The notes beneath the pieces were generated by a model. The model was not told the DNA's origin. It saw only the letters and a program-made list of their open reading frames with translations, and searched no databases. The translations under genes were made by a program, and so were the position numbers. This document shows, in pieces, positions 20,129-55,519 of a stretch of 64,000 nt of DNA. Source of the DNA: Spinacia oleracea. Taxonomy: Eukaryota > Streptophyta > Magnoliopsida > Caryophyllales > Amaranthaceae. The DNA lies in NCBI RefSeq assembly GCF_020520425.1, contig NC_079492.1:104133157-104197156 (forward strand). Direction: 5' to 3'. Numbering within the stretch: position 1 is the stretch's first letter; each line of letters begins with the position of its first letter.

Positions 20129-20940
20129 ATGTCGCTCGAAGATATGCAAGCGCAACTAGCAAAGATGGACTCCAGTATGGAACAACTACGCCTAGAAAAT
20201 CGGTCCTATAAGTCCAAAATGATCTCGATAATGAAAAGAAGATCGAGAAAAGGGTCCTTCAACAAACCATGGGAAGAAAATACTTCTCGCTCGATCCAAA
20301 ACCCTTTTCTGGCAAACTACCAGAAAAGTTCAATTCATCGGACTTACCCAAGTTTAAGGTGATGGATAACCCCCGTAATCACCTCTTAAGCTTTTTAGAT
20401 GTCATGAACCTCAAGGGTGTGGACAAGTTAATGTACTTACCCACCTTCCCCATGCCCTTGGAACCAACTCCACTTCAGTGGTTTTATCACTAGGACCCCA
20501 AGACCTTCCCCGCCTGGGAGGATTTTATTAATGTCTTCATCAAGCAATATTCGTCTAACATGGACTTCCAAGTAACCATGCGCGAGTTATAATTTCTTTC
20601 CCACAAGAATAACGAAGGTTTTACAACCTACTTTGCTAGATGGAGAGACCAGACGACCCAGTTAATCCAAAGGCCTCCCAAATCTGAGTTAGTCCAAAGA
20701 TTCATTGAAAACTTGGACCCGGCATACAAATAGCAATTTAGGTACTTGGGCTTTGATTCCTACAAAATAATCTACGATATAGGTATCAAAATAGAGGATG
20801 ACCTCTTCAAAAGCACCCAATCTAACACCACTAAGCCACCTCGGCGCCTAGAAATAACACGTAGAAAAAGGGTGAATCTTCCCAAGTACACGAAGTTCAT
20901 GCCGTTGAGGATAATCCTCCTCAAAGAGTCAAAAGGTGAC
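20129..20940 (+). pseudogene. gag: Tat-lineage gag (capsid) pseudogene
   Basis: Gag forms the capsid that packages element RNA. A start at 20129 (MSLEDMQAQLAKMD) opens a coiled-coil-like N-terminus. After a frame change near 20265, the capsid core reads from about 20269 with LPKFKVMDNPRNHLLSF, FIKQYSSNMDF, YFARWRDQ and FIENLDPAYK, the block order of a retrotransposon gag. In-frame stops lie at 20491-20493, 20590-20592 and 20731-20733. Similarity fades after about 20930. No zinc knuckle is readable. I call Tat from the sequence style plus the primer-binding site and LTR type. Confidence 0.75.
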
Positions 20941-21146
20941 TAAAGATAGAAAGTTCGCCTCACTCGGGTCGACTCTCACTCAAGCCTATGAAGGACTAGT
21001 CTCCCAAGGCAAAATGGCTCCAACCGGGCCAACACGTGATCCCGTAGTCAAGAATAGATTTGGGTTGACTCCGCCTACTACAAATATCACAGGGAAATGG
21101 TGATAATGTCGAGGATTGTTGACATTTAAAGAACATAATCCGGGAT

Positions 21147-22220
21147 ATGATAGAGGACAAAATAATTCCTCTACCCAACGTTAACAAACCTAGAAACAAT
21201 AAGAGTCCACTAGGCTCTTGTCATATTTCTTTAGACCACCCTGAGAGCGCAACATTTGATCCTACGATCTACATAACGCCTCAAGGTGATCCTCTTGCCA
21301 AGTTACCAATGTTAGACTCTACTGGAAAAATATGCGGTATATGGGACAATGATGCCGAAGACGTTTACTTGTCTCAAACCACGGGCCAAGACTACTTCAC
21401 TCAAACCCGGCCCACGATGTCTCCCTTCAATTCTACTCCAAAAGAAACCGAGGTTGCTAACTTAACTTGGTCCAGACGATTATACCAATTGGACATCCAT
21501 CCACCACTCGTGAATGGTGTCCCTTCTGGACAGACTTCTAAGAATAAACGGCCCACCACCGTGGCTGAAGTTATAGAAAATCCACTCTTGAAGCAAGTCC
21601 AAAGGACCAAAGCGGAAATCACCATTTGGGACTTAATGTGTACTCCCTCCGTCTCGGAATACTTGACGTGTTTTCCTTATCGGGCCGTCCCTTAATACTT
21701 GACCTGTTTCTAAAAATGGAAATATTCTAACAATATTATATTATTTCTCACTCCACCCCTATTAACCCATCTACCCCCTACTCCATACAAAAAATAATTA
21801 AAAATTCAACCCCTACTCTCCCCCAACCCCACCTCTTAACCCACCTCTCACTAACTACATTAAAATAATACCCCACTATCAACTACTACCTATTAAATTA
21901 AATAAGTCAATTCAAGTCCCTTAAACTCTGTGCCGGTCAAACCGGGTCGAGTATTCCGGGACGGAGGGAGTACTTCAAAAGAGCATCGCAAAAAATTTAT
22001 TTTCTCCCTAGATCACATTTCAGTTCCCACGGACATCTCACCAGACTCGTTGGTGAACCAGGTGACCGACGATACAAAAGAACGGGCAATAATCTTTACT
22101 ACAAAAGACTTACCCAAAGAAGGGAGTGCCCACAATAAGGCACTCTACCTTAGCTCTATGACTTGGGAGGAGTGGCATCAACTCTTCACCAAATGGTTAA
22201 TCTTAACCATAACATTGTGA
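21147..22220 (+). pseudogene. Tat gag C-terminus/protease-region remnant, split by a MITE
   Basis: A 182-residue frame begins at 21147 and contains phrases typical of the region between gag and protease of Tat elements, such as TTVAEVIENPLLKQ and KAEITIWDLM. At 21641 it is cut by a Stowaway MITE. Coding similarity resumes after 21971 in another frame (LVNQVTDDTKERAI, then TKDLPKEGSAHNKALYLSSM), where a protease would follow. The protease active-site triad is not readable before the solo LTR at 22226. The real start is probably upstream of 21147, since the frame continues the gag polyprotein. Confidence 0.6.
21643..21970. mobile_element. Stowaway MITE (Tc1/mariner type)
   Basis: The 328-bp unit begins CTCCCTCCGTCTCGGAATAC and ends GTATTCCGGGACGGAGGGAG, near-perfect terminal inverted repeats. 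It is flanked by TA on both sides (21641-21642 and 21971-21972). The CTCCCTCCGT terminus and TA target are diagnostic for Stowaway. It has no coding capacity and splits the Tat remnant. Confidence 0.95.
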
Positions 22221-22225
22221 CTATG

Positions 22226-23642
22226 TGTTAGGTTATGACAAATATAAAACATATATTTCATGCGGAGAAACCATAAAGCCAGGAATCCAAATTAATTGCC
22301 ACATAGTCAATTAGCATAATTTAGGATACATACATGTGACGCGTGCCTTCCCTAGCTGCTCCCGAACCAAACAAGAACAAGTTTAGGACTCCAAATGTCG
22401 CCCCTCCGTAGATAGTCCACAGCACGTTCGGATCCGCCTTAGATTCAATTAACTAGAATATTATCTAAGGTTATATGTTTATTCGAAAGCTTAATTATAT
22501 TTTAGGCAAATTATTAAGTTAGTTTAAACTTAAACTATAAGAATACTTGTTGATGGTGATGTATAAATTGTGATTATGAATCACCTATTTATAGGGAGGA
22601 AATATCGGACTTAGATTTCCACTAGGATTCAATTTACTAATTCAATTAGAATTCTAGTTAAATTAATCCATTAGAATTTAATGTTTAATCAAACATTTAA
22701 TTCTTGTGGAATTAGGAAAACAATTAATCGAGCAATCCTAAACGACCAAAGATTCGTAGGATTGAACAAGCACAAACACACGCAGCCCATAAGGCCACGG
22801 TGCGCGGCTCGGCCCAAGGCAGGCTGGCAGCACGCGGCCCATCCTTGGGCGCTGCTGCTGGGCCTCGCTTGGCTCGCTTGCTGCGGGCTTGGCCATGCCT
22901 TGATCGCTGGTCGAGGGCCTCGCTGGCCTTGCTGTGCGCGGGCTTCGCTAGGCGCAGGCCAGGCTTCATGCTGGGCCTTGCGTCTAGCAAGCTCGTCGGA
23001 CGATCGTTTCGTACGTCGCGCTTCCGATTCGTTTTCCAATTCCGGAATTAATTTCTGTTTCGAACAATATCTAATATTTCCGATTCCGGAATTTATTTCC
23101 GTTTCGAACAAATATTTAATATTTTCGATTCCGACAATATTTCCGATTCCGGTAATATTTCCGTCTCCTGCAATATTTCCGATTCCGGCAATATTTCTAT
23201 TTCCAATAATATTTTCCGATACGTACCATGTTTCCGTTTCCGGCAACATCTACGACTTGGATAATATTTATATTTCCGTTACGATCCATATTTTTGTTTC
23301 CGGCAATATTATCGTTTTCGGAGTATTAATTTTTTGCCTTTTGACGATTTCAGCTCCCACTGGAACCGAGATCCGTCAATTCCGAATATTCATAATTAGA
23401 GTATTTAATTCACTTAAATACTTGATCCGTTCACGTACTATTTGTGTGACCCTACGGGTTCAGTCAAGAGTAAGATGTGGATTAATATTATTAATTCCAC
23501 TCGAACTGAAGCGGCCTCTAGCTAGACATTCAGCTCACTTGATCTCACTGAATTATTAACTTGTATAATTAATTAATATTGAACCGAATTTATTAGACTT
23601 AACATTGAATGCATACATGAACCAAGGGCATTATTTCCTTCA
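22226..23642 (-). mobile_element. Copia (Angela/Tork-like) solo LTR J with 5-bp target duplication
   Basis: 1417 bp, TG...CA ends, flanked by CTATG at 22221-22225 and 23643-23647. On the minus strand it starts TGAAGGAAATAATGCCCTTGG, like the LTR of element G. Its plus-strand start also shares the 'catgcgga...aaagccaggaa' layout with 46800-46860. GC-rich patch at 22780-23000, then 300 bp (23030-23330) of short TTCCG/CGGAA-type repeats. The 292-residue open frame across 22681-23559 is a by-product of these repeats, not a gene. Confidence 0.88.
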
Positions 23643-23647
23643 CTATG

Positions 23648-24430
23648 GCCATACACGCTCCCCCTTCGATGTCAGTTGCTCTATGATCGGAATGACCGAC
23701 ACTGAAAGGGACATGTAGGGGTTCCAAATGGACTAAATAGTCCAAGTCAATATGATCCAGCATTCCTGGACCTACATGTAGATCGGTTCATTTCGAACAT
23801 ACTACTATCTCAGGGCTACTTTCCGGGGATGCCACTAGGCCTAAGGGAGAAGGATTTGCTCTTATCTCCCCCTACCTAGCGTCTCTACTTCCTTTGGCTT
23901 GGGTTATAAGCCAACTGAAGACGATATAATTTGAAGTCTATCTCATGTACGTCTCAAAAATTCCAAAGCTTAAAAAGGACACGCAATTCTCTTGCCACCT
24001 TACCAATAGACTATAAACGGTATTTTTGCTCGCGAAGGAGAGAACCACCCTTGCTATAGCTTTCATGAACCGCTCATTCAGGACGACATACAAAAGCCAA
24101 GGTTTGAGATTTTCCATGAATGCGATATGTTGGATGAGGCACCTCACCTTACCAACACTAAATTTGACACCGAAGAAGCCTTGGATAAACAAGCTTTACG
24201 GTTACTATTCAATGAATTGAGGCCAATAGGAGATGAAGCCACTATCACCACCCTATTCATGTAAGACGAAGGATTGGATCCAACCCAACTAATCGTCCCG
24301 TCACCCACAACGGTGGAAGAAGTCAAGCATGGATGGTCCAAATTATTTCAATAGATCAACTCAAGAGGGATCAAGTTCAAGATGGCTACCGTAGAAGGAC
24401 CAAAATTCTTCGAGAACCAACCCAAAGTTT
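23648..24430 (+). pseudogene. Tat pol-region remnant without RT motifs
   Basis: Continues element I after the solo LTR. Short coding-like stretches are in different frames: 24026-24220 reads through FRTTYKSQGLRFSMN, and near 24160-24240 a frame rich in acidic residues precedes the expected RT start. I see no YxDD, RNase H or integrase motif, so most of pol is deleted. The identity rests mainly on position and is weak at the protein level. Confidence 0.4.
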
Positions 24431-25954
24431 GAGTTCAAGTCCAGGGTACCTAGCATATAAGACCTATTCCTTTATGTTTTCGCAATAATCCGGAAGTCAT
24501 CATCCGGAAATATTTTACTTCTTTTTTCGATGTAGTTTTTTTTAATATTAAATTCAATAAAACAAAGGCAACAATTCTAGTCCACACTATTTGCATAAAT
24601 TAACGATAATTTAAACATGCTTGCGAAGTAAGAAAAATAATCCACGGTCCACTATAGGCCAGCCAAACGGAGACTCACTCAGTCATACGAAGTGATTTAA
24701 GACAACAAAATAAACCTTATCATTGTTATTAGCTAAAAGAGCTAAGTAAAAGAAGCGAAGAAATCAAATAAAGAAAAAAGCAATAACTCTAACCTGTATC
24801 ATCCTTAAAGTACATAGGGAACCAAAACAACAAAGAGAAACAAAAAGGAAAGATCGGGATTACACCAACACAAAGTTAATACAAAGAGGCGATCAAAAGT
24901 TTTGGCCCACAAACATAAAAATACTTAACAGGCAGTGGGGCTAAAGGACAATACGCCTACCCGATACCTACACAAAGAAAACCATATCTTATCCTTAAAA
25001 ATTCCGCCACCGAAACTATCTTAAGTCACAAATAGAAAAATCAAATACGAACAATTGAGCATTTCACACTCAAGATCCGAAAGCTTCGCAAAGCACCTTA
25101 AAAACCGTTCAAACAGCTTATAAGTGCACGACCATTTACAAATTAAATTCAACAATTAAACACGAAAACGAACCAGGAACAATGCGAAATACCCAACCCA
25201 GCGCGAGAAAATTCTTGCGCTCAGCACCCAGGCGCGAGGAAGTTCTTGCGCTGGCCAGATAAGCGCAACAATTTCAATCATTTTTCATCAGGAATTCTTA
25301 TTTCTAAAAAATAAAATTCCTAAGTTATTTCCAAAAATCAAAATTTTCCGTTTTCTAAATAAAATGAGGGCTGAGTTTAAGAATTTCTGTTTTCTAAAAA
25401 AACGAGAGTTAAATTTAAAAAAATTCGTTTTCTAAAAAACGAGTGTCAAGTTTCCGTTTCTAGAAAACGAGAGTCAAGGCAAGTTTCTAAAAAACGAGAA
25501 TCAAGTTTCCGATTCTAAAAATTGAGAGTTAAGACAAGTTTTGCGTTTAGCGCGAGTTAAGTTGAGTTTTTCACATTTTCTCTAAAAAATAAGGTTGTAA
25601 GTTTGCCGCTTTCTTTCAAAAAGCAGGACAACCAAGTAAAGTTTTCCACTTTCTTTCAAAAAGCAGGACCGTCAAGTTTTCAATTCGTCTAAGTCTTCAA
25701 ACGTCCGTTTTCGAAAAGTTTCATCTATATGAACACCTTCAATGACATTGCGAGAAGGTATAAGTTCAGTTAGCAAATCTCCAATGACTCGCGAGGAGAG
25801 ATGTTGACGTTCCATGTGATGACCCTTAAGTCAAATGTTATCACTCAGCCGGGGGCTCGTGAGGCCCTCGCGCTCGAATCGGTTTCTCCAAACTAGATTC
25901 ACTAGACGCACTCTGTCCACAATACTTTAATCATCGTCTTAATCAGACTCAATC
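24431..25954 (+). other. 3' non-coding region of I
   Basis: No gene is visible in 1.5 kb. Bases 24540-24710 resemble the reverse of 240-460 in H. Two near-palindromes of the element's own word lie at 25201-25220 and 25232-25251 (gcgcgagaaaattcttgcgc type). From 25370 to 25700 there are loose repeats of 'ctaaaaaacgag...caagttt', a degenerate tandem array with a period of about 30-45 bases. Confidence 0.6.
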
Positions 25955-43185: not shown

Positions 43186-43640
43186 TATATTTGTTCCCTT
43201 CTTTCTACCCATGTTGTTGCCTGTGCCCTTCTATTTGGTGACTAACCACATTACAAGCCCATCAAGCCCCATTGGTTATTAGTCCCAAGCTTGGCTTGGG
43301 GGAGCTATTAGTGAGTGAGGTGAGGGAGTTGTAGTGTGCTTCATTTGAGCACAATTCGGGTATTGGAAAAAGAAAGGGAGTTCTTCTTATTCTTATGTGG
43401 TGATTAAAAAAAAATGAGCAGAAAGATAGGAAGAGTTGAGAATGTGAAGGTTCCCAAAAGGGAGAAAAAAAATTGAGCAAGAAGAAAAAAATCATTACTT
43501 TCAGAAAAATTCAAAGCATTGTTTCATTCAAGTATTACAATTCCTTATTCTTGTGAGTGATTGGTCTTATAGTTGAGAAAGGTGAAAACGTGTGGTGTGG
43601 TTCGTTTTTTGCATCCTCATGTGTTGAGTAGGAGTACTGT
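43186..43640 (+). other. 3' internal remnant of element C
   Basis: Resembles 63540-63660 of E: 'acccatgttgt.gcc', 'gtccc.ag', and the polypurine-like gcttgggggagct at 43294-43306. It is non-coding. F follows directly. Confidence 0.55.
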
Positions 43641-43644
43641 GGTG

Positions 43645-44955
43645 TTGTTCCTAGGTTTTGGTTGATGACACACACACACATATTGAAAACTTCCTGATTA
43701 TGGTTGCTAATGACTTTAGACAGGTAAGTGCCTGAGTTCCTAATAGGAGAGGAACTTGAAACAGATGCTGAAGTTCCTAATATGCACTTGGAACAGCTAC
43801 TGGAATTCCTGAGCTGGAAGCAGTACAAGATAGAGTTTCAAAATCACAAAAGGAGCAACACATATTACAAATCGAGTGTTCTTCATAATCACAAGAACAA
43901 AATGCAGACTCATGGCTACTAGTTCCTTTGTGAACATAAGAGGAACTCATCAATGTTCCTGAGCTGGAACAAGTAAAGCTTCAGAGTTGAATGCCTCATC
44001 AAAGGGAAGACATATATGTCTAGGTAGTCTACTTTACTTAGATTGTATGTAAAATATTAGCATGCTAGGCGATATATAAGGAAATGGAGGAACTTGGATT
44101 ACTTAGCTGTTTTTGTCTAAATATCTGGCAATGCGTTTTAAGGAAAATGTTTTCAAATAAAATATCTCTTTGTGTTTAATAAAAATCAGATTCTTATTAT
44201 ATTTTGTTAATTAAATAAAAACAGTTTTTATCTTCCTAAAACTTCTCCTAAATATCTTGATAAAATAAATAAACGTTTTTAAGAAAACAAAAGTGATTGA
44301 CTTAGTCTTAAACACGTCCAGCAGTTGAGGAAGTTGAGTGGGAAGTGGTCTTCCCTTGTTCCTCAAGTCTAGGGATGTGACAAACAAAGTGTCAGTTGTT
44401 GGCAGTTGAGTTTTTGAAGGAAACAAACCCTAAGGACAAAACTCTATATAAGGCCACGAAGTTTTCTGAAACAAGTACACAAACTTTCCTAGAGCTTTGC
44501 ATTTCCAAAAACGTTTTAAAGAGTTTTCTAAAAACGAGTTTGTGTCCTAGTTTAATCTAAGTTCCTAAAGGTCTTTATATATTTACTTAAGCTTATTAAT
44601 ATCCAGAGTTCTCGAAACAAAACTGTATTTCAGATTAGAAAGGATAGCGTTATCCTGTAAAGACTTAGAGTGTAAGTCTAAGAGAAAGAGAAGAAAAGTG
44701 AGTTGTAATCAGAGTAGGTTACTGTGAGGAACTCGAGTTTGAGAGAAACTCGAGTTAGAGAGTTATTGTAATCGAGGCATTACCATAATATAAAGGAATT
44801 CTCTTCTTGATTAGTGTCAAGAAGTTTTCTAAATCATTGCTTTTTACTTTCTTAATACTCAGTTCCTTTAATATTTCTAAGTTCCGCAAGAAACTCTCTT
44901 AAAATTCGAAATACAATTCACCCCCCCTCTTGTGTGTGTTCCTACTGGAATATCA
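43645..44955 (+). repeat. 5' LTR of F
   Basis: It ends ATATCA two bases before TGGTATCAGAGC. The exact left edge is uncertain: starts at 43645 or 43663 both begin with TG. It includes a short CA repeat near 43668-43680 and 15-16 copies of GGAAC or GTTCC. Confidence 0.75.
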
Positions 44956-44957
44956 AT

Positions 44958-44971
44958 TGGTATCAGAGCCA
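44958..44971 (+). other. Primer-binding site of F (tRNA-iMet)
   Basis: tggtatcagagcca is the standard Copia primer-binding site, two bases after the LTR end. Confidence 0.95.
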
Positions 44972-45021
44972 GTACTCACTAAAATCGCAGGAAACCCTGT
45001 TTGAGTCAAGTTCCTGATAGT

Positions 45022-46796
45022 ATGAACTCACAAGAGAAACTGGAAGAAGGTTACTCCACACAAAGGCCACCTATGTTCAATGGAAAGTTCTACTCATACT
45101 GGAAGAACAGGATGGAGATATTCATCAAAGCTGAAAACTACCAAGTGTGGCGTGTGATAGAAGTTGGAGACTTTGAGGTAACAAAAACCAATGCAGAAAA
45201 CAAGGTAGTTCCTAAACCAATGTCTGAATTTGCCAAAGAAGATTTTGAAAAATATGAGATAAATGCTATGGCTGTTAAAATCTTACATTGTGGACTTGGA
45301 CCCCAAGAACACAATAGGGTCATGGGGTGCAAGAACGCAAAACAGATTTGGGAACTACTACAAGTAACCCACGAAGGAACTAATGAAGTTAAGAGTTCCA
45401 AATTGATCTTTTGATGTCTAAATATGAAAGATTTGAAATGCTTCCAAAAGAAACTATTCAAGAGATGTTCACTAGATTTACTAACATAACTAATGAATTA
45501 GTTTCTCTTGGTAGAATCATTCCCACAGATGAACAGGTAAGAAAAATACTAAGGAGCATGCCACAAGATGATCGTTGGAGAACAAAGGTCACTGCACTAT
45601 TTGAGACCAAGGACTTCACAAAGTTTAACATTAACAACTTGCTGGTTCCTTGATGACACATGAATTACATCTTGGAGCTGCTGTTCCTGAGAGCTCCAGA
45701 AACCGAGGACTTGCTCTAAAAGCTGAGGAACTCGACGAATCTGAGCCAGATGAGGAAGAGGCTGCCATGCTGGTTAGAAAAATGTGAAAGATCTACAGGA
45801 ACTTCAAACCAGGAAACCAGAAAGGAAGGAACTTTGCAAGGAAAACTATCAGTTCCAAAACTGAGCAAGGTTGTTACAAATGTGGAGAAACTGATCATCA
45901 AATCCGTGAATGCCCTGTGTGGGAAAATGACAAAGCCAAAGGAAAAGGAAAGGAACAGGTCAAGGAACTCTACAATAAGTCTACCTTCAACAAGCCAAAC
46001 TTCAAAAAGGCTATGATAGCTGCATGGGGCGAAGCAACAGATTCAGAAGATGATGAGGAACAACCAAATGAAGAAACTGCAAATCTTTGCCTAATGGCAA
46101 GGACAGATGGAACTGAACAAGTTCCATCAGAAGAAGTAAGTTCCTCCACCCTTTAGTGTCTTTCAAAGTCAAAACTAATTGAACTGTTGTTAGAAACTCT
46201 AGATGATTATAAAAAGCTAAGTATATTAAAAGCCCAAAGAGATAGAGCCTTGGAACTTAGTAAAGACCATATGAGTTATCTAAACAATGTTAGATCTGAT
46301 GTTCAAAGTAGGTTCTTTGAATTGCTAGATAGGAATACCACCATAAATGAATCATTCGAGAAAGTTAGGAATGAAAACATCCTTCTTCAAGTGGAACTCA
46401 GTCAATACAAGATGTTTAACTTAAGTCTAGACCCCACAAAATCCTTAGAAATGAACATGGGAATTTTCAATGTCAACCTAGAAAGATTAAACAAAGACCT
46501 GATCACCACAAAGGAACAGAAAGATCAACTAGAAAGGGAACTAGCCATGGCCAGGGGCAAGAAACAACCACCTAAGGTTCCTCCCAAATGGATTGAGAAT
46601 GCTCAATCCAAGAGAACATAAGGTTTAGGTTTTAGCCACAAAACTAGTCATAAGAAACGATATGTGGAACTCCCTAGTGTAAAAGTCTGTTTCTCATGTG
46701 GAAGTGGAAATCATGTAAGTACTGAATGTTCCAAGATGAAGGAACGGGATCAAAAGAACATGAATTATGTTAAGAAAAAATGGGTTAAGAAGATAG
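45022..46796 (+). pseudogene. gag: SIRE-like gag, multiply broken and truncated
   Basis: The first ATG in the gag frame is 45022. The capsid N-terminus has PPMFNGKFYSYWKNRMEIFI. A frame change at about 45411 leads to MLPKETIQEMFTRFTNITN and LRSMPQDDRWRTKVTALFE, and a stop follows at 45651-45653. The first zinc knuckle, CYKCGETDHQIREC, is near 45873. A long, charged coiled-coil-like region runs from 46187 to 46620 (VRNENILLQVELSQYK). After a TAA at 46619-46621, a second knuckle CFSCGSGNHVSTEC lies near 46690. The Angela-like insertion cuts it at 46797. At least three frame breaks exist. Confidence 0.85.
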
Positions 46797-47798
46797 TGTA
46801 GGAATACAGTTAACCATAATAACATGTGCGGAAACAATCCCCAAAGCCAGGAACCATGTAAAGCACAGATTAAGCAAACTTACGTTAGAAGCGTGTTTTC
46901 CACAAATTGTCAACGAACACGAACTTAGAACTCCACTTGTCGTTCCTCTACTTGGTTCACCGACACGATCATATTCGTCTTGATTATCGTAGCTTAGACA
47001 ATCGATCAAGAGTTTTGCTTTTTGGGATGAACACACTTTGGAGGCACAGAGAGAATTAGGGTTCTCTGTGACTCTAGGGTTTTTGGTGTGACCGAATTGT
47101 TTTTGTGTTGGAAAACGGGTTAGAAGGTTATTAACATAACCTTACTAACCGACCAATCCATAAGGCAAGGCCGGCCAGCAAGCTCGCGCAAGATCACACG
47201 AGCACGCACAGCGAGCTGGGCCGTGGGCCGCGCTGCTGCTACTGTGTCGTTGCCTTGGCCCGCGCGCACACACACACGCAGCTGCTCGGCCATGGGCCAG
47301 CGCTGCTGTGTCGTGGCCTTGCTTGCGTGCCCAGCGGGCCCATGGGCCTTGAGTGCTTCGTGCACTCGGCTCGTGGGCCGCTCTTCGTATTCGCAATTAA
47401 TATATTTCCGATATATTATTTATCATTTCGTATACGACGAATCACCGTCTTACGATACGATTTATTCGTTTCGCCTAGCTTACGAATATTCGCGATACGA
47501 TATACGATTCCGATGCAAGGTCGTATCGTATAATACATTTTCCAACTAATTCCCGAAAAGCTATTAAATGAATTTCCGATTCATTTAATCCGGTGATCTG
47601 TTATGTGTCATTGGTGTGACCTTGTAGGTTCAGTCAAGAGTAAGCTGTGAGTTCAATATTCATTAGAACTCACTGATCGGAAGCATTGCTCCAGCTAGCT
47701 GTTCCGATCACTTGCTCTTACTGAATTAATTGTTCGCAATTAATCTGAACCTTGGTATTAGAATTAATGCACCTTGGGTGAAGGACATATTTCCTTCA
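46797..47798 (-). repeat. 3' LTR of G
   Basis: 1002 bp. On the minus strand it starts TGAAGGAAATATGTCCTTC and ends GTATTCCTACA. Like solo LTR J it has a GC-rich patch (47160-47395). A second patch (47398-47540) is dense in cgatacga and tcgtatcg. Confidence 0.85.
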
Positions 47799-47811
47799 GT
47801 CTCCCACTTGT
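47799..47811 (-). other. Polypurine tract of G
   Basis: The minus strand reads acaagtgggagac directly before the LTR start, as usual for Angela/Tork-type Copia elements. Confidence 0.78.
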
Positions 47812-48622
47812 CATTCAGACAAGTGTGCATTCACATTCCTTTGTCACTTAGTGTTACTTACTGAACATAAGGTAAGATCTAAGCCATCCTTTATAGAGCT
47901 CAACTGTTAAACTTTTGCAAAAGGTTAAGCCTTAACCATTCTGAGCACGGCCATGCATTTTACAGTATCTAACTCTCCGAGAGGCCTTGTTACACAACAA
48001 CACCATATCCTATCAAAGATAGGAGGACAATCCATTCTTGCAATCTATGAACACTCACTTTGATTCATAGTACGCCCAATAGCTGCTTTTATAGCCTCCT
48101 TTTACGGTGCAACATTTAGCTAGTATCAAGGCGAACTAATTCTCAAACGAGCAGACATAATCGCTCATGTTCTGAGGAACGGTTTCTAATCGCCATTAAT
48201 GAGAACTACCTATGACATGACTTTAATCTCTTAAAGTGTTCTCATGGTCAATTCGATACAAGATCCAATAAGTATCTATGCAAAAGATTCTGACATCCAG
48301 TCACTCTAGTTCAAGAAACAGAACTAAGTAATCTACTTGCAATCTAATCTTCATTAGTCATTGGTCGTCCACCTTTCAATGACCCGGATTAGGGATCCTT
48401 TTGTGACTTCAATATTCAAGTTCACTTATGGGTGTTTCTTTGTCAAAGAATCCATCTTGACATCCCATTTGAATGATTTGAATCACATGGACTTATCATT
48501 TAATACTAAACCACAATTAAATGAATATGAAATAATGAATTTCATAAATATGAAATGGTTAAACCAATTATTTTAAACATAGATCTAACAGATGTTCTAA
48601 AACAATAATTAGAAAATCAAAG
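47812..48622 (-). other. 3' non-coding region of G
   Basis: No gene is visible in 0.8 kb between the end of RNase H and the polypurine tract. Confidence 0.7.
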
Positions 48623-50690
48623 CTATTCTCCAACATGCTTGATTCCCATGGTTGCTACATGTGCGTTGTGTTTCGCTTGTGGCAACGGTTTAGTCAATGG
48701 ATCCGCGACGTTGTCGTCATTTCCAACCTTGCAAATCTCGATTTCCTTTCTTTCAACGATCTCTCGAAGTATATGAAATCGCCGCAGTACGTGCTTGGAC
48801 TTCTGGTGGCTCCTTTGCCTGGGCAATGGCTCCGCTATTGTCACAATACAAAGCCACTGGTCCTTTAATGAAGGGGACAACCCCAAGTTATTCGATGAAC
48901 TTTCGAATCCAAACAGCTTCCTTTGCTGCTTCTGAGGTAGCAATGTACTCGGCTTCAGTTGTAGAATCCGCAATAGTGTTTTGCTTAGCACTTTTCCAGC
49001 TTACTGCTCCACCGTTGAGGCAGAACACAAACCCAGACTGTGATCTGAAATCATCTCTGTCGGCTTGAAAGCTTGCGTCCGTATAGCCCTTAACAATCAA
49101 CTCATCTGTACCACCATAAACCAGAAACTGATCCTTAGTCCTTTTCAGGTACTTTAGGATATTCTTGGCAGCAGTCCAATGTGCCTCACCTGGTTCTGAC
49201 TGGTACCTGCTCGTTGCACTGAGTGCGAACGAAACATCCGGCCTTGTACAAATCATAGCATACATGATGGATCCAGTAGCCGAAGCGTATGGAATTCCAC
49301 TCATCTTTCTACGCTCATCAGATGTTTTGGGGCACTGATTCTTGCTTAGATATGTGCCATGTGACATGGGTAGATGGCCTCTCTTGGCTTCCATCATATT
49401 GAACCTAGCTAGCACTTTGTCAATGTAAGTGCTTTGTCTTAGTCCAATAATCCTCTTAGATCTATCCCTGTAGATCTTGATGCGCAATATGTAATGTGCC
49501 TCTCCTAAGTCCTTCATTGAGAAACACTTTCCAAGCCAAGTCTTTACAGACTCCAACATAGGAATGTCGTTTCCAATAAGCAGTATGTCATCAACATACA
49601 AGACTAGGAATGCAATTTTACTCCCACTGACCTTCTTGTATACACAAGATTTGTCATGATTCTTGATGAAGCAAAACTTATTGACTGCTTCATCAAATCG
49701 TTTTTTCCAACTCCTTGATGCCTGCTTTAGTCCGTAGATGGACTTCTTAAGCTTGCATACCTTTCCTTGGTTCTTTTGATCGACAAAACCCTCCGGCTGT
49801 GTCATAAACACAGTCTCTTCAAGAACACCATTCAAGAAGGCAGTTTTGACATCCATTTGCCATATTTCATAGTCATGAAAAGCGGCAATCGCAAGGATTA
49901 TCCGAATAGACTTAAGCATCACGACTGGAGAAAAGGTTTCATTGTAGTCAACGCCGTGAACTTGCCTGTAACCTTTTTCTACCAATCTAGCCTTGTATAT
50001 GTATACAATTTCATCCTTGTCTTTCTTCAACTTGAAGACCCATTTGCATCCGATAGGTGTGAACCCATCCGGCAAATCAACCAAATGCCATACTTGATTT
50101 TCAGACATGGAGTCTATTTCAGATTGCATGGCCTCTAACCATTTAGTGGAGCTTGGGCTCGTCATAGCTTGCTTGTAAGTCATAGGTTCATCACTATCCA
50201 ATATGATAACGTCTATGTTTTCAGTCAAGAGGACGCCTGTCCATCTGTCCGGCTGAAAAATAGTTCTACTTGACTTACGAGGGGCAACAACGTTTTGAGG
50301 AACTACTCCCAATGGCTCTTCTAAAGACCTTGGAGGTTCATCAACCTGAACTTCTTCTAAAGAGTTATGAGTTCGTTGTTTGTCGCGAATCTCTTCGAGG
50401 TCTATTATTCTCCCACTTGTCAATTTGGAAATATGATTTCTTTCCAAAAAGACACCGTCACGAGCAACGAAAACCTTGTTGTCTGACTTGTTGTAGAAAT
50501 AATACCCCATAGTTTCTTTTGGATACCCAACAAAGAAACATTTGTCAGATTTTGGTTGTAGCTTGTCCGAAATTAATCGCTTGACATATGCTTCGCAACC
50601 CCAAGTCGGGGCTACCCCGTCCCCATGGACAACGCAACAGTGTCCTGAGGGATCTTCAGAAAAGACAACTTTGGAAGTTTCCCAGTCCAT
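48623..50690 (-). pseudogene. pol: Copia integrase end, reverse transcriptase and RNase H
   Basis: The 600-residue frame (50690 to 48888) starts at the integrase C-terminus (WGCEAYVKRL, CFFVGYPKETMGYYFY). The RT fingers/palm follow (NQVWHLVDLP, CKWVFKLK, MDVKTAFLNG), then the catalytic LVLYVDDILLIG, and RNase H beginning at GYTDASFQ with STTEAEYIA. A TAA at 48888-48890 and a small deletion near 48800 break RNase H. Its end is in another frame down to 48623 (CKVGNDDNVADPLTK). The product would copy element RNA into DNA in the cytoplasmic particle. YVDD and the RNase H acidic residues are intact; the breaks make the whole inactive. Confidence 0.92.
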
Positions 50691-52621
50691 AATTCGTATG
50701 GAGTCTTTTCAACATCTTTTGACGGAGCACGATTCAGTGTGAGTGCTGCAGTTTGCAACGCATGTCCCCAGAACTGTAAAGGAAGTTCGGCCTGACCCAT
50801 CATTGACCTGACCATATCGAGTAAGGTCCTGTTTTTCCGTTCCGAGACTCCATTCCATTGAGGTGTCCCTGGAGCAGTCAATTCAAAAAGAATACTGCAT
50901 TCTTTTATATAGTCATCAAACTCGAGGCTAAGATATTCACCTCCTCGATCCGATCTTAGAGCTTTGATTTTCTTGCCATGTTGATTCTCTACTTCATTTT
51001 GAATTTCTCGGAATTTCTTAAACGATTCAGACTTGTGCTTCATTAAGTAAATATAGCCATATCTACTGACGTCGTCCGTAAACATTATGAAATAGCTGAA
51101 CTCACCTCTAGATTTCGTACTCATAGGCCCACATACGTCCGTATGTATTAGCCCTAGTAGTTTGCTTGCTCTTTCTCCCACCTTTGAGAAAGGTTGCTTT
51201 GTCATTTTGCCAAGTAAACAAGATTCGCATTGATCAATCTTCACTAAGTTGAATGATTCTAGAATTCCTTTCCGTTGAAGTAATTCCATGCGCTTTGTGT
51301 TTATATGGCCTAATCGACAATGCCACAGAAATGTGAGATCCGAATCACTAGTTTTAGCCTTTTTGGTATTTATGTTATAAATGTGTTTGCTCGTATCTAG
51401 CACATAAAGACCGTTTTCTTGTTGTGCTGAACCATAAAACATTCCATTCAAAGAAAAAGAACAACTATTGTCTTTAAATTGAAAACTAAAACCTTTAGAA
51501 TCCAAACTTGAAACGGAAATGATGTTTCTGGTGATACTAGGAACGTAGTAACAGTTTTCTAGTTTCAAAACAAAACCACTAGGCAAAGAAATAAAATAAG
51601 ATCCTACGGCTAATGCAGCATTCCGTGCTCCATTTCCCACGCGTAGATCCATATCGCCTTTATCAAGCTTTCTACTTCTCCTTAGTCCTTGCGAATTGGA
51701 ACATAAGTGTGAGCCACAACCAGTATCTAATACCCAAGAAGTAGAATTAGCAAGATTACAATGTATAACATATATACCTGAAGTAGAAGCAACGTTCCCG
51801 TTCTTCTCATCTTCCTTTCTCTTCAAGCAATCCCTCTTCCAATGCCCCTTCTTCTTGCAGTAGAAGCATTCAGAGTCGGCAGGAGAACGAGTCACCCTCT
51901 TCTGTTTACCAGAACTGGTGCCGTTAGACTTGGATGAGGGCGCAACCTTGCCCTTACCCTTCTTGCCTGATTTCTTGAAGTTCTTGCCCTTACGCACCAT
52001 AAGCATATCGTGCTTGTTCTCTTGCTTGAGCGTCTTTTCAGCGGTTTTTAGCATACCGTAAAGCTCAGTAAGAGATTTCTCCATGATGTTCATGTTGTAA
52101 TTCAACTTGAACTGATCATATCCATTATGAAGCGAATGGAGAATGATGTCAAAAGCCATTTCATTTGAGACGTCAGAATCTAGAGCTCTCATATTCTCAA
52201 AGAGTCCAATCATCTTAAGAACATGTGGGCTCACTGGTTCTCCTTTCTTGAGCTTAGTCTCAAGGATCAACCTCTGAGTCTCGAATCTTTCGATTCTGGC
52301 TTGGTCCTGAAACATGTTCTTCAACTCCGAGATGATTTGGTAAGCATCCGAGTTAATGAACGTTTTCTGAAGTTCAGTACTCATGGATGCAAGCATCACA
52401 CATTTGACATCCCTGTTGGCCTGAATCCAATGATTAAGGGCAGCTTGAGTTACCTCCGGCCCAGCCTCTTCCGGTAACTCTTCCTCAAGGACATATTCCT
52501 TTTCCTCATGCATAAGAACTACTTGTAAGTTCCTTTGCCAGTCGAGGAAATTTTTTCCATTCAACTTCTCTTTGTCGAGAATTGAACGCAGGTTGAAAGT
52601 ATTGTTATGGTTTGCGGCCAT
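50612..52621 (-). pseudogene. gag-pol: Copia gag, protease and integrase core
   Basis: The start is taken at 52621 (MAANHNNTFNLRSILD); an in-frame upstream extension to 52663 lacks family support. Gag (about residues 1-240) has LNGKNFLDWQRNLQVVL. A zinc knuckle CFYCKKKGHWKRDC is at residue 252. The protease active site D-T-G starts at Asp299, and the GAG-pre-integrase block is around LWHCRLGH. The integrase catalytic residues are Asp495, Asp558 and Glu594, with 35 residues between the last two, the textbook spacing. The frame shifts after residue ~655 because of a 47-base insertion (50604-50650). The gag sequence recalls the BARE/Angela lineage, so Angela or Tork. Confidence 0.92.
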
Positions 52622-53191
52622 TTTGATTAATACAATCGAAAAGAATTTGCAATAAATAACCATTCATAAACTTCAATAACTTTGAAATAAAAGCAAGCAT
52701 GCAATCATTAAAGCTATTAAAACATTTCATTCATGCAAAAGCAAAAACATGGTCCAAAATGAATGAAACGATTCCAAGACCCCAAAAGTCCTAAATCCTT
52801 AAGCAGCTTTAGCATGTCTCAAGTACTTTAAGATTTTAGGTAAGCAAAACCTATTGCTAGTAATCTCCAAATTACTCTTGGTTAATAAATTAATGCCATA
52901 ATTTATCCCATTGCCACAACATAATGCCATTGTTGTTTGAGTTGAAACCACAATCAACGTGCTCCTTTAGGACCTTACCACCTAAGTCAACTAAAATAGC
53001 ACCTCGCTTTAGAGTAAACCTACTACCTTAGATCCTTAGATTTTTGTAAGTGCTTGATTTGGAAGACAATTTTTAAACTCAATATTACTTTGGACCTAGT
53101 TGTTTCTATGTTGGTTCGATTATTTAGTGAACTTAATCTAATCGAGTCATATGAAACAAGCTATTCATGCAAAGCATACATACACTCATGC

Positions 53192-53194
<3 letters not shown>

Positions 53195-53256
<62 letters not shown>
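53195..53256. repeat. (AT)n microsatellite
   Basis: About 31 uninterrupted AT units directly abut the left arm of the inverted repeat at 53256. Confidence 0.97.
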
Positions 53257-53259
<3 letters not shown>

Positions 53260-53596
53260 GGATAGTTAAATACGGTCTGCGTACCGTTCTATCTTTGAAT
53301 GTAAAGTTTTAAATATGGTATGCGTACCATGAAATTTTGACGTAACTTATTATTTTCAAGTGTTTTTAAGTTTAGAACTTTAAGTTAGCATTTGAACGAA
53401 GATTCAAGACGATGCCAAGCTAACAAGGAGGTGATGAAGATTGGATGCTTCACGACAAGATGTTTTGGGCCATACTAGATCACCATTTATTTATGCAATA
53501 TATAAATTACATCAAAATTTCATGGTACGCAGACCATATTTAAAACTTTACATTCAAAGATAGAACGGTACGCATACCGTATTTAACTATCCTAAA
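53256..53596. mobile_element. Fold-back/MITE-like element with 85-bp inverted repeats
   Basis: Arms 53256-53340 and 53512-53596 are inverted copies 85 bases long (outer end tttaggatagttaaatac). They enclose a 171-base loop. I find only two mismatches between the arms. Each arm contains two smaller palindromes of the type acggt-ctgcgt-accgt and atggt-atgcgt-accat. There is no coding capacity. A TA or AT target duplication is possible but cannot be proven next to the AT microsatellite. Confidence 0.8.
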
Positions 53597-53978
53597 TGGC
53601 CATACTAGTCACTTGGAGTACCTGCATTACATAAAATATATATATTCTATGCATTCATCCATTCGTATGCTAAAACGAATGGCCCATGTAAATATGCAAG
53701 TATTTACGTGAATTAATTAAAATTCACATTCACATAAACGCGTCCTAAAAGATTAATCAATTTCTAAATTATTAAACCTTAGACTTTATTCTAATTAAAA
53801 TTGAATTTAATTAAAATAATGCGACCTACGAAAATAACTAAAATTAATTATTTCATTTTAATTTTATTTAGTGGCTCCCACTCAAACCAATTATTATTCC
53901 GGATAATTAATTATGAAATATTAAATTAAAACTCGCGGCCCGGCCCAAGCAAATAAAATATTAAATTAAATATCCCGT

Positions 53979-55519
53979 TGATGAGTCATATTTGTATAGG
54001 GTATCTTAGGCGCATTTAGGTTGCATTATTAGGCATTTATATCATTTTAGTTGCATTTAGGATCACATTTGCATAAGTTATCGTTGTCGTACTCTATTAC
54101 GCCCCGTTTGTGTTTTCTTAATGTTTCAGGTGATTTTACGGTCATTTGGATGCTTTCGGAGTGTTATGAGTTGATTTGGATGATGAACGGATGGAATCTT
54201 GACTCGAGGATCATTGCATATCTCTAGGGATAATTTTGAGTCAACAACGAAGCTAAACGCTATTTTTCTAAGCATCAAAACGGACAAGCGTTCACTCTTT
54301 TGATGATATCTCAAGTTCTACATGTCGGAATGAGGCGATTTTTATTGGCCTAGAAAGTAAACTTCAAGAGCTTTCCAACGACAGGTCACACGTCCTTATA
54401 GGCATTGTTGAACAAGAGTTATGACATAAACAAGATGGCTCGACTATCCGCTTCGCCCGAAGCCCAAAATGATGGCCCAATCTTCCCCTTGGGCGCGAAA
54501 ACCAGCGACCCACCAGCGGGCCCGCTGGTTTCTCCGCCCAGCTACTTCCACGCGGGTTCGTGGCGTCATTTCTCGTGATCGTTCAATTCAATGATAACTT
54601 ATGTAATTATTATTATTTTCCTTTTTTGTTTAGAATTTAGGAAACACTAAAATACCTCAAGGGAATTAATGTATTCCCTTATGCTTTTATTTTCTTTTAC
54701 GTTTAGAATTCCCTTAAAACGCTTTTCACGTTAGTTTTGCTTTTCATCCCTTTTTCCATTGTTGAACCCTAGCTTTTCAATTTTCAATTCATCAATCTAG
54801 AGGTAATTCAAGAATCGTTTTTTTTGCTTTAATTTATTATTATTGTTTTCGTTCCTTAGTTTAATTTTTCCTTTGATTATGAAATTCATGTTTATTATTT
54901 CTATCATGTTTGTTAATTCAATTATGAGCGAGTAGTCGTATTCTAGGGCTAAGTAAGGGAAGCCATGTTTATACCATGATTATTATGCATAAAGTTTGTT
55001 AATTTATAGACTATTGCTTGAGTATTTCGATTGATTTGTTTTAATTGTTGATTCATGTTATCGGCCAATTTCATGAATTGATTATCTAGCTAATAGGAAT
55101 TAGAATAGAAAGATCGTATTTTTAGAGGCTTAGTACAATTGGCAATTCTGATTATGTTAGTGACCATACTGCATATGTTGAATTGAAAGTGTTAAGACCC
55201 GACCGTAGGATTAACATGTACTTTAATTACTCGGCTTAGTTTATTCATTTCTGGATTGATTTGGGTTCTTGGATTGGTATAAGCATGGTGAACCGAATAG
55301 ACGCCCTAGACCTTTTAATTCATTGATAATTTCACATTTACATTATTGCTTTAGCTTCATTAGTTAATAATATCCAAAATCAACTTTCGTTGTTGAAATA
55401 GTTCGTATAATTGGGCAAAAACTAATAGAACTTGTCTCCCTGTGGGATCGACCCGTATTTGCTAAGTATCTGCTAACAACAGACACCGTGCACTTGCGGT
55501 ATCACTATTTAATTCATCA
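53979..55519 (+). repeat. 5' LTR of E
   Basis: 1541 bp from TGATGAGTCATATTTG to AATTCATCA. The word patch at 54440-54560 includes a perfect 18-base palindrome, accagcgggcccgctggt, at 54512-54529. Confidence 0.9.

Follow-up and report, generated by a model that had tools for sequence, protein, structure and literature searches.

The window analysed here, 64,000 nucleotides of the Spinacia oleracea genome, contains at positions 43663-46796 the long terminal repeat (LTR) and gag region of a Sirevirus retrotransposon, in which the five-base word GGAAC and its reverse complement GTTCC (counted together as "the word") are strongly over-represented. The 5′ LTR of this copy occupies 43640-44956 on the forward strand (approximate ends), as aligned with the LTRs of four other loci (L026, L027, L036 and L037). 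Eight alternating half-sites GTTCC..GGAAC at 43736-43970 (no strand assigned) form four dyads, with 6-15 bp between half-sites, upstream of TATATAA at 44445-44451 (forward strand), the probable TATA box of the LTR. The LTR/internal junction with the primer-binding site, TTGGTATCAGAGC, lies at 44957-44969 on the same strand and is presumably of the initiator Met-tRNA type. At the 3′ end of the LTR, the polyC-rich stretch TTCACCCCCCCTCTTG (44917-44932, forward strand) matches the description of Sireviruses in the available passages of Bousios et al. 2010 (PMC2829016). Downstream, gag is read on the forward strand as a first open stretch assigned to PF14223 (45022-45414, 4 words), a middle stretch that is broken and readable in pieces only (45415-45787, 3 words), a zinc-knuckle stretch (PF00098; 45788-46156, 9 words), a C-terminal stretch with no Pfam family above the cut-off (46157-46621, 5 words) and a 3′ stretch as far as a nested insertion (46622-46796, 3 words). 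The Sirevirus assignment is based on the polyC-rich signal together with the conserved LTR/internal junction (44917-44969) and on a copia-type gag-pol, with gag matching PF14223 and an apparent protease-integrase-reverse transcriptase (RT) order seen by eye in the translations of loci L018-L020, whose motifs we take to be those of the three enzymes.

An exact recount of this stretch (3134 bp, 36.6% GC) gave 21 GGAAC and 19 GTTCC, the same 40 words that the initial annotation had counted by hand. Its division into 15 LTR and 25 gag words held for the LTR, whereas one of the 25 downstream words (45010) lies in the leader, leaving 24 in the gag region; within the 1330 bp upstream of the primer site the copy has 16. 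The excess stood after Markov correction: dinucleotide, 3-let and 4-let shuffles gave 5.3, 11.1 and 23.9 words, respectively, and 0 of 500 shuffles reached 40 under each model. The 7-mer AGGAACT/AGTTCCT, described earlier as the usual context, accounts for 17 of the 40. Word density was 12.8 per kb, compared with 1.15 per kb in the remaining window (70 words in 60,866 bp), and in 3134-bp tiles over the window the only other words with Markov-1 z > 10 were CGCGC, CGCAC, ATATA and CCACC. The drop in density reported from 46797 onwards occurs because element G, which begins there, is a different, nested copia element. The excess returns outside the window, at about L024:7241, where the same Sirevirus copy resumes (~L024:7241-8109, 13 words versus 3.3 under codon permutation; z 7.0, rank 1), and is thus element-wide as claimed, covering LTR, leader, gag and this further stretch.

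A protein motif does not explain the word, as the initial annotation had argued. With protein and codon usage fixed by synonymous codon permutation, the three open stretches of the window gag (409 codons) contained 18 words versus 6.9, a number reached in 0 of 2000 permutations, and GGAAC/GTTCC ranked 1 of 512 five-mer pairs (z 5.8); GGAAC was not among the six top words in the open reading frames (ORFs) of element G or of the gypsy element. Both orientations occur and the codon frames differ, as described, GGAAC being found in each of the three frames and GTTCC in two.

The search for relatives covered one 894-Mb assembly of 242 contigs, to which all counts refer. The pattern of Sirevirus LTR end plus primer site was found at 449 places, and its reversed control at 0. 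Twelve of the 449 (junction loci L026-L037) were picked by LTR tail among the places listed (C1, C2), several of the tails used for picking themselves containing GTTCC. An LTR excess was present in 12 of 12 junction loci and an interior excess in 11 of 12. In the 1330 bp upstream of the primer site, a stretch longer than the LTR in some families, 7 to 23 words were found versus 1.3 to 2.4, with GGAAC ranking first in 7 of 12 loci and among the top four in all 12. The interiors (3.2 kb downstream of the junction, against Markov-1) held 40 versus 6.0 (L027) and 20 versus 5.0 (L026, partly another element) words in family A, 35 versus 5.9 in family Y (L037), 39 versus 6.4 and 34 versus 6.7 in F3 (L030, L031), 36 versus 4.1 and 50 versus 3.9 in F2 (L028, L029), 32 versus 4.0 and 32 versus 4.1 in F5 (L032, L033), 22 versus 7.4 and 22 versus 6.4 in B′ (L034, L035), and 1 versus 5.1 in family X (L036). 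The single word of L036 is due to another element that comes after its primer site, and a nested element explains why GGAAC ranked only third in the L026 interior. Loci L018-L020 (family B) were found with a word-based pattern and are therefore biased towards words; of 20 loci fetched, 3 had a match to the window gag, and the LTR stretch of L020 gave a weak result (3 versus 2.3). Density ranged from 4.1 to 14.8 words per kb in the 12 junction loci, against 1.46 per kb in 18 other fetched loci that matched neither the LTR nor the gag of the window copy. The presence of the word in other copies means that it is not chance in one degenerate copy, a possibility that the initial annotation had raised.

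Codon permutation of the open stretches of at least 60 codons in the junction loci, some of which are not gag, gave 20 words versus 8.7 in L026, 32 versus 9.6 in L027, 31 versus 7.3 in L030, 29 versus 10.5 in L031, 33 versus 9.4 in L037, 20 versus 9.5 in L034 and 14 versus 6.7 in L035; the open stretches of L028, L029, L032, L033 and L036 are not gag, and we do not count their codon test as evidence. Family B gag had 16 versus 6.8, 14 versus 6.0 and 12 versus 5.2 (L018, L019 and L020, respectively), and GGAAC ranked only 4 in L019 pol and 11 in L020 pol, a weak result. In F3 the word was also found in RT (7 versus 3.1) and in the env-like ORF (20 versus 8.7). The env-like ORFs of L020 and L038 were assigned by position, and that of L020 had no Pfam match above the cut-off. 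A protein search returned 48 gag relatives, one of them from Beta vulgaris (70% identity), and a search with the zinc-knuckle stretch returned 2. Searches for relatives beyond this genome yielded no usable DNA, with no match among viral contigs and plasmids, two bacterial records among genome contigs and one 1553-bp record among phages. This phage record, GenBank OR847810.1 (L003), named Listeria phage LM 4-11-1, encodes a copia gag relative (34% identity over 85% of the query); it is probably a contaminating contig.

In families F2 and F5 the word occurs almost without shared sequence. Neither has a gag ORF within the 3.2 kb read, and none of the four open stretches tested reaches the Pfam cut-off. 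Apart from LTR end and primer site, F2 and the coding families have in common ~44 gag residues, 39 pol residues (E 0.006, a weak match at the end of the L029 read) and DNA matches of 26-94 bp; F5 has one 26-bp match to the coding families, and F2 and F5 match each other over 114 and 50 bp. The only internal repeat is a 71-bp pair in L029. Yet the word numbers in these interiors equal or exceed those of the coding families, with the highest density in F2, so that descent of the surrounding sequence cannot account for the words.

In 246 words pooled from five loci, the information outside GGAAC consisted of A/T before the core, T/A after it and a slight tendency against T at the third base after it. 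One-mismatch neighbours as a set were not enriched in the five loci (106 versus 103.9, 104 versus 100.4, 114 versus 115.8, 131 versus 126.4 and 122 versus 130.4), and the idea of a decayed longer motif was rejected on this ground. Single neighbours stood out, namely GGATC (3.1-fold in L030) and GCAAC (2.6-fold in L029); GGATC/GATCC occurs 22 times in L030, about three times expectation, and is possibly a second word of F3. The letter after the core differed between families A and B, with LTR and interior in agreement within each. In the window copy T outnumbered A by 10 to 6 in the LTR and by 17 to 5 in the interior, with GGAACT 14 versus 3.7 and GGAACA 3 versus 2.0 in codon-controlled gag, whereas L018 (family B) had A in 6 of 6 LTR words, A 6/T 1 in the 1330 bp upstream of its primer site and A 22/T 8 in the interior, with GGAACA 22 versus 5.5 and GGAACT 9 versus 4.6 in codon-controlled gag and pol. 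Both strands were enriched against their own expectation (GGAAC 30 versus 2.1 and GTTCC 20 versus 1.8 in L029; 23 versus 4.0 and 17 versus 2.0 in L027), the GTTCC excess being smallest in family B among the loci of this test. Helical or codon phasing and even spacing were rejected because interior spacing is random and unphased, and tandem duplication because self-comparison of L027, L029, L030 and L033 showed hardly any internal duplication. In the upper LTR, close neighbours had opposite orientation in 6 of 7 cases in the window, 6 of 9 in L026, 5 of 9 in L027, 7 of 12 in L037 and 4 of 8 in L036, so that alternation is less strict in A-type LTRs other than that of the window; no such dyad pattern was seen in the upper LTRs of F2, F3, F5 and B.

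Comparison of copies indicated that the word itself is kept. L027 (A) and L030 (F3) align over 3276 positions at 78.5% identity. Of their 87 word occurrences, 70 were conserved (35 words shared and 17 one-sided), compared with 68 of 244 for words of the same letters and 0.308 for all 5-mers. Five other pairs gave, for the word and for same-letter words, 16/39 versus 26/160, 16/43 versus 24/199, 18/25 versus 24/51, 88/98 versus 112/160 and 40/47 versus 184/241 (the last not significant), so that in 5 of 6 pairs the word was better conserved than words of the same letters (p < 0.05). Pooled counts, in which the pairs are not independent and every shared word is counted twice, were 752/984 versus 0.419 for all 5-mers at 74-89% identity (rank 3 of 474), 314/720 versus 0.189 at 60-73% identity (rank 13 of 463) and 334/451 versus 0.398 in LTRs alone (rank 15 of 365). 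Where A and F3 encode the same residue, their third codon bases were identical in 35 of 39 cases within words and in 258 of 474 elsewhere (p 5e-6). The trend was the same in four more pairs (p 1e-5 to 0.04). A different copia pair gave 6/15 versus 120/332. By strand, A and F3 had 22 shared and 6 one-sided GGAAC, and 13 shared and 11 one-sided GTTCC. Taken together, conservation beyond same-letter words, the held synonymous bases and the lack of neighbour enrichment argue for selection on the exact word, and we consider GGAAC/GTTCC very likely to be a selected functional word.

Element G (46797-53977, reverse strand) lies outside the feature and extends to the gypsy LTR at 53978; its second LTR copy is at L024:6259-7241, the pair being 94.6% alike. 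A gypsy element is apparently nested in G, with LTRs at 53978-55519 and L024:535-2075 (98% alike), and the Sirevirus is interrupted once more near L024:8110. An inverted repeat of 96 bp at 53255-53350 and 53502-53597 is 96% complementary, with 151 nt between the arms. Another word, CGGAA/TTCCG, is over-represented in other elements (22-25 versus 6.8-7.1 in tiles of window 20372-25073; 44 versus 14.1 in L036); this excess is located in window 20372-25073 and in nested stretches of L026, L028 and L036, and stems perhaps from a short repeated unit. The small element at L023:1393-1893, which does not match the Sirevirus loci, carries GGTTCCGG-like arrays with 19 words within 500 bp, and we take it to resemble a hAT-type transposon.

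The explanation that we favour, tentatively and at slightly less than an even chance, is that WGGAACW (core GGAAC/GTTCC) is a dispersed cis-acting word read by a trans-acting protein on duplex DNA, marking Sirevirus DNA for anti-silencing or activation. Its parts differ in strength. The word is probably read as double-stranded DNA, and an exact, two-strand, position-free word in elements with little else in common suggests a protein reader acting in trans. Natural selection would keep the word in LTRs, leader, gag, protease, RT, the F3 env-like ORF and the F2/F5 interiors; a putative sequence-specific protein would read the duplex word in trans on the chromosomal copy, or possibly on cDNA; and the element would be marked by word density, not by fixed positions or spacing. 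The most likely use would be protection of the element from silencing, or its activation, in the way that VANC acts via short motifs in VANDAL transposons. We rank this role first because VANC proteins work so through motif density, even in an unrelated element, an analogy that makes it plausible and leaves it short of probable. More speculatively, and with some doubt on our part, the word may be a genome-wide address for the Sireviruses of this plant, a 5-7 bp duplex signal written by selection through coding and non-coding sequence, which families with unrelated interiors and no gag ORF in the part read acquired to use the same trans-acting reader. If true, LTR retrotransposons would have a system of identity and anti-silencing that works along the entire element and differs in dialect between some families (..CT versus ..CA), and the coding sequence of the parasite would bear a second, protein-independent code on both strands. 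It bears on the escape of plant LTR retrotransposons from silencing and on the recognition of partner elements by shared machinery, and a selected word common to otherwise unrelated Sirevirus interiors predicts a protein of this specificity.

Several observations weigh against this explanation. The counts come from a single genome and only 12 of its 449 junctions, and in the LTR alone 4-let shuffles reached 15 words in 2 of 500 cases, a weak result. Conservation between L030 and L031 did not exceed that of same-letter words significantly (p 0.13). The gag of the window copy (A) and that of B have 2 of 17 aligned window words in common, which means that individual word sites come and go while the overall density is maintained. 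After the core, F3 LTRs have a mixture of letters, and the LTR (T 4/A 3) and interior (A 18/T 10) of F5 disagree. In family B, the interiors are sense-skewed (GGAAC:GTTCC 26:8, 17:3, 18:4 and 18:4), GTTCC is not enriched in gag (1 versus 0.9 in L018 and L020), the env-like ORFs show no clear excess (4 versus 1.9 and 4 versus 3.1), and the integrase part of L018 shows none (GGAAC 1 versus 2.0). Moreover, the window LTR shows only weak clustering (7 close gaps versus 4.0, P 0.047), and the random spacing of the interiors offers no dimer geometry that would point to a particular protein.

The sense skew of family B keeps alive the main rival, in which GGAAC in the transcript would be bound by the Gag nucleocapsid for packaging or by an export factor, and which would serve the gag-less families too. 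GGAAC also outnumbers GTTCC in the interiors of F2 (25:11 and 30:20) and F5 (21:11 and 20:12), and B gag is enriched for GGAAC only. We nevertheless find an RNA-level word unlikely, since outside B the two strands are similarly enriched (14-fold and 11-fold in L029, 5.8-fold and 8.5-fold in L027), the LTRs likewise, and GTTCC is conserved between A and F3 as well. RNA structure fares worse. Hairpins or double-stranded RNA (dsRNA) from GGAAC..GTTCC pairs would fit the LTR dyads of family A and the close opposite gag pairs at 45376/45395 and 46109/46121. Among 21 stretches of 150 nt from the window that were folded, 3 came out far lower than their shuffles (z -3.2 to -4.4), and 2 of these cover the gag pairs just named. 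Palindromes do form hairpins and dsRNA in maize Sirevirus LTRs. However, opposite neighbours are not in excess in the window gag (4 of 9 close gaps) or in five pooled loci (66 of 145 pairs within 40 bp), and the mean folding z was -0.26 to -1.24 in four loci, which makes this reading very improbable.

That the words are sites of an ordinary host transcription factor, such as a stress factor, with an enhancer spread over the element, is also improbable. The dyad cluster above the TATA box in the upstream LTR of family A would suit it, and stress-related factor sites are reported among Sirevirus LTR repeats in the available passages of PMC2829016. On the other hand, an enhancer would not usually run through coding sequence and over kilobases of interior as this word does, and no factor could be named. 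The likeness to heat-shock half-sites that the initial annotation had pointed out did not hold up: three-part heat-shock elements (nGAAnnTTCnnGAAn) were absent from 5 of 5 sequences, and two-part forms numbered 1-5 versus 1.8-2.6 in shuffles. Its other proposal, a mutational or reverse-transcription bias that creates GGAAC, would be compatible with the differing word positions in A and B gag but can hardly be upheld, because words outlast same-letter words in most pairs, the different copia pair shows 6/15 versus 120/332, and one-letter neighbours, taken together, show neither excess nor deficit. Descent combined with protein and codon effects would account for the large overlap between close copies, which at ≥ 90% identity have 464 of 515 word occurrences in common; as the only cause it has next to no credibility, given the codon-permutation excess in the window gag, its downstream part and the junction loci, the nearly unrelated, word-dense F2/F5 interiors and the scarcity of internal duplication.

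As to known systems, no description of such a word was found among the literature matches listed, in line with the initial annotation; subscription papers lay mostly outside these, so an earlier description is possible. The available passages of a paper on a beet copia element (PMC2669250) make no mention of such a word. Bousios et al. (PMC2829016), in the passages available, describe Sirevirus repeated motifs (RMs) as palindromes of 10-20 bp, 12 of 13 with a CGG-CCG core. According to the same passages they are found in divergent Sirevirus members, in at least 8 copies, in that part of the upper LTR which precedes the TATA box; the linker has them too, as does, in a few cases, the beginning of env. 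The four dyads of the window LTR resemble RMs so described in being short symmetric repeats in the upper LTR upstream of TATA. They differ in that the core here is the non-palindromic GGAAC, mostly as single half-sites that run through gag, protease and RT, and the RM core CGG.{0,9}CCG was absent from 11 of 12 LTR stretches, occurring once in L032.

The CAR-E export element has a consensus that contains AGUUCC. Dense short motifs on both strands are also found in the subterminal arrays of hAT transposons, where they are read by a protein of the element; these arrays, in contrast, are confined to the ends of a DNA transposon. VANDALs, likewise, are DNA transposons. The available passages of PMC10732640 give no sequence for CAR-E. 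For VANDAL21 and VANDAL6, the passages available of PMC5735166 and PMC10398659 describe VANC-bound motifs as a dense short word over long targets, with family-specific variants and recognition by density, arranged as tandem repeats of the same orientation in non-coding regions and present also in the unrelated element AT9TSD1. The Sirevirus word departs from this description in lacking tandem repeats and in occurring in coding sequence, both of which count against our explanation, and further in its two orientations, in belonging to LTR retrotransposons and in having a reader that is only putative. It agrees with the VANC targets, as described there, in being a short word dense in every family sampled, with a family-specific letter that holds for A and B, if not clearly for F3 and F5.

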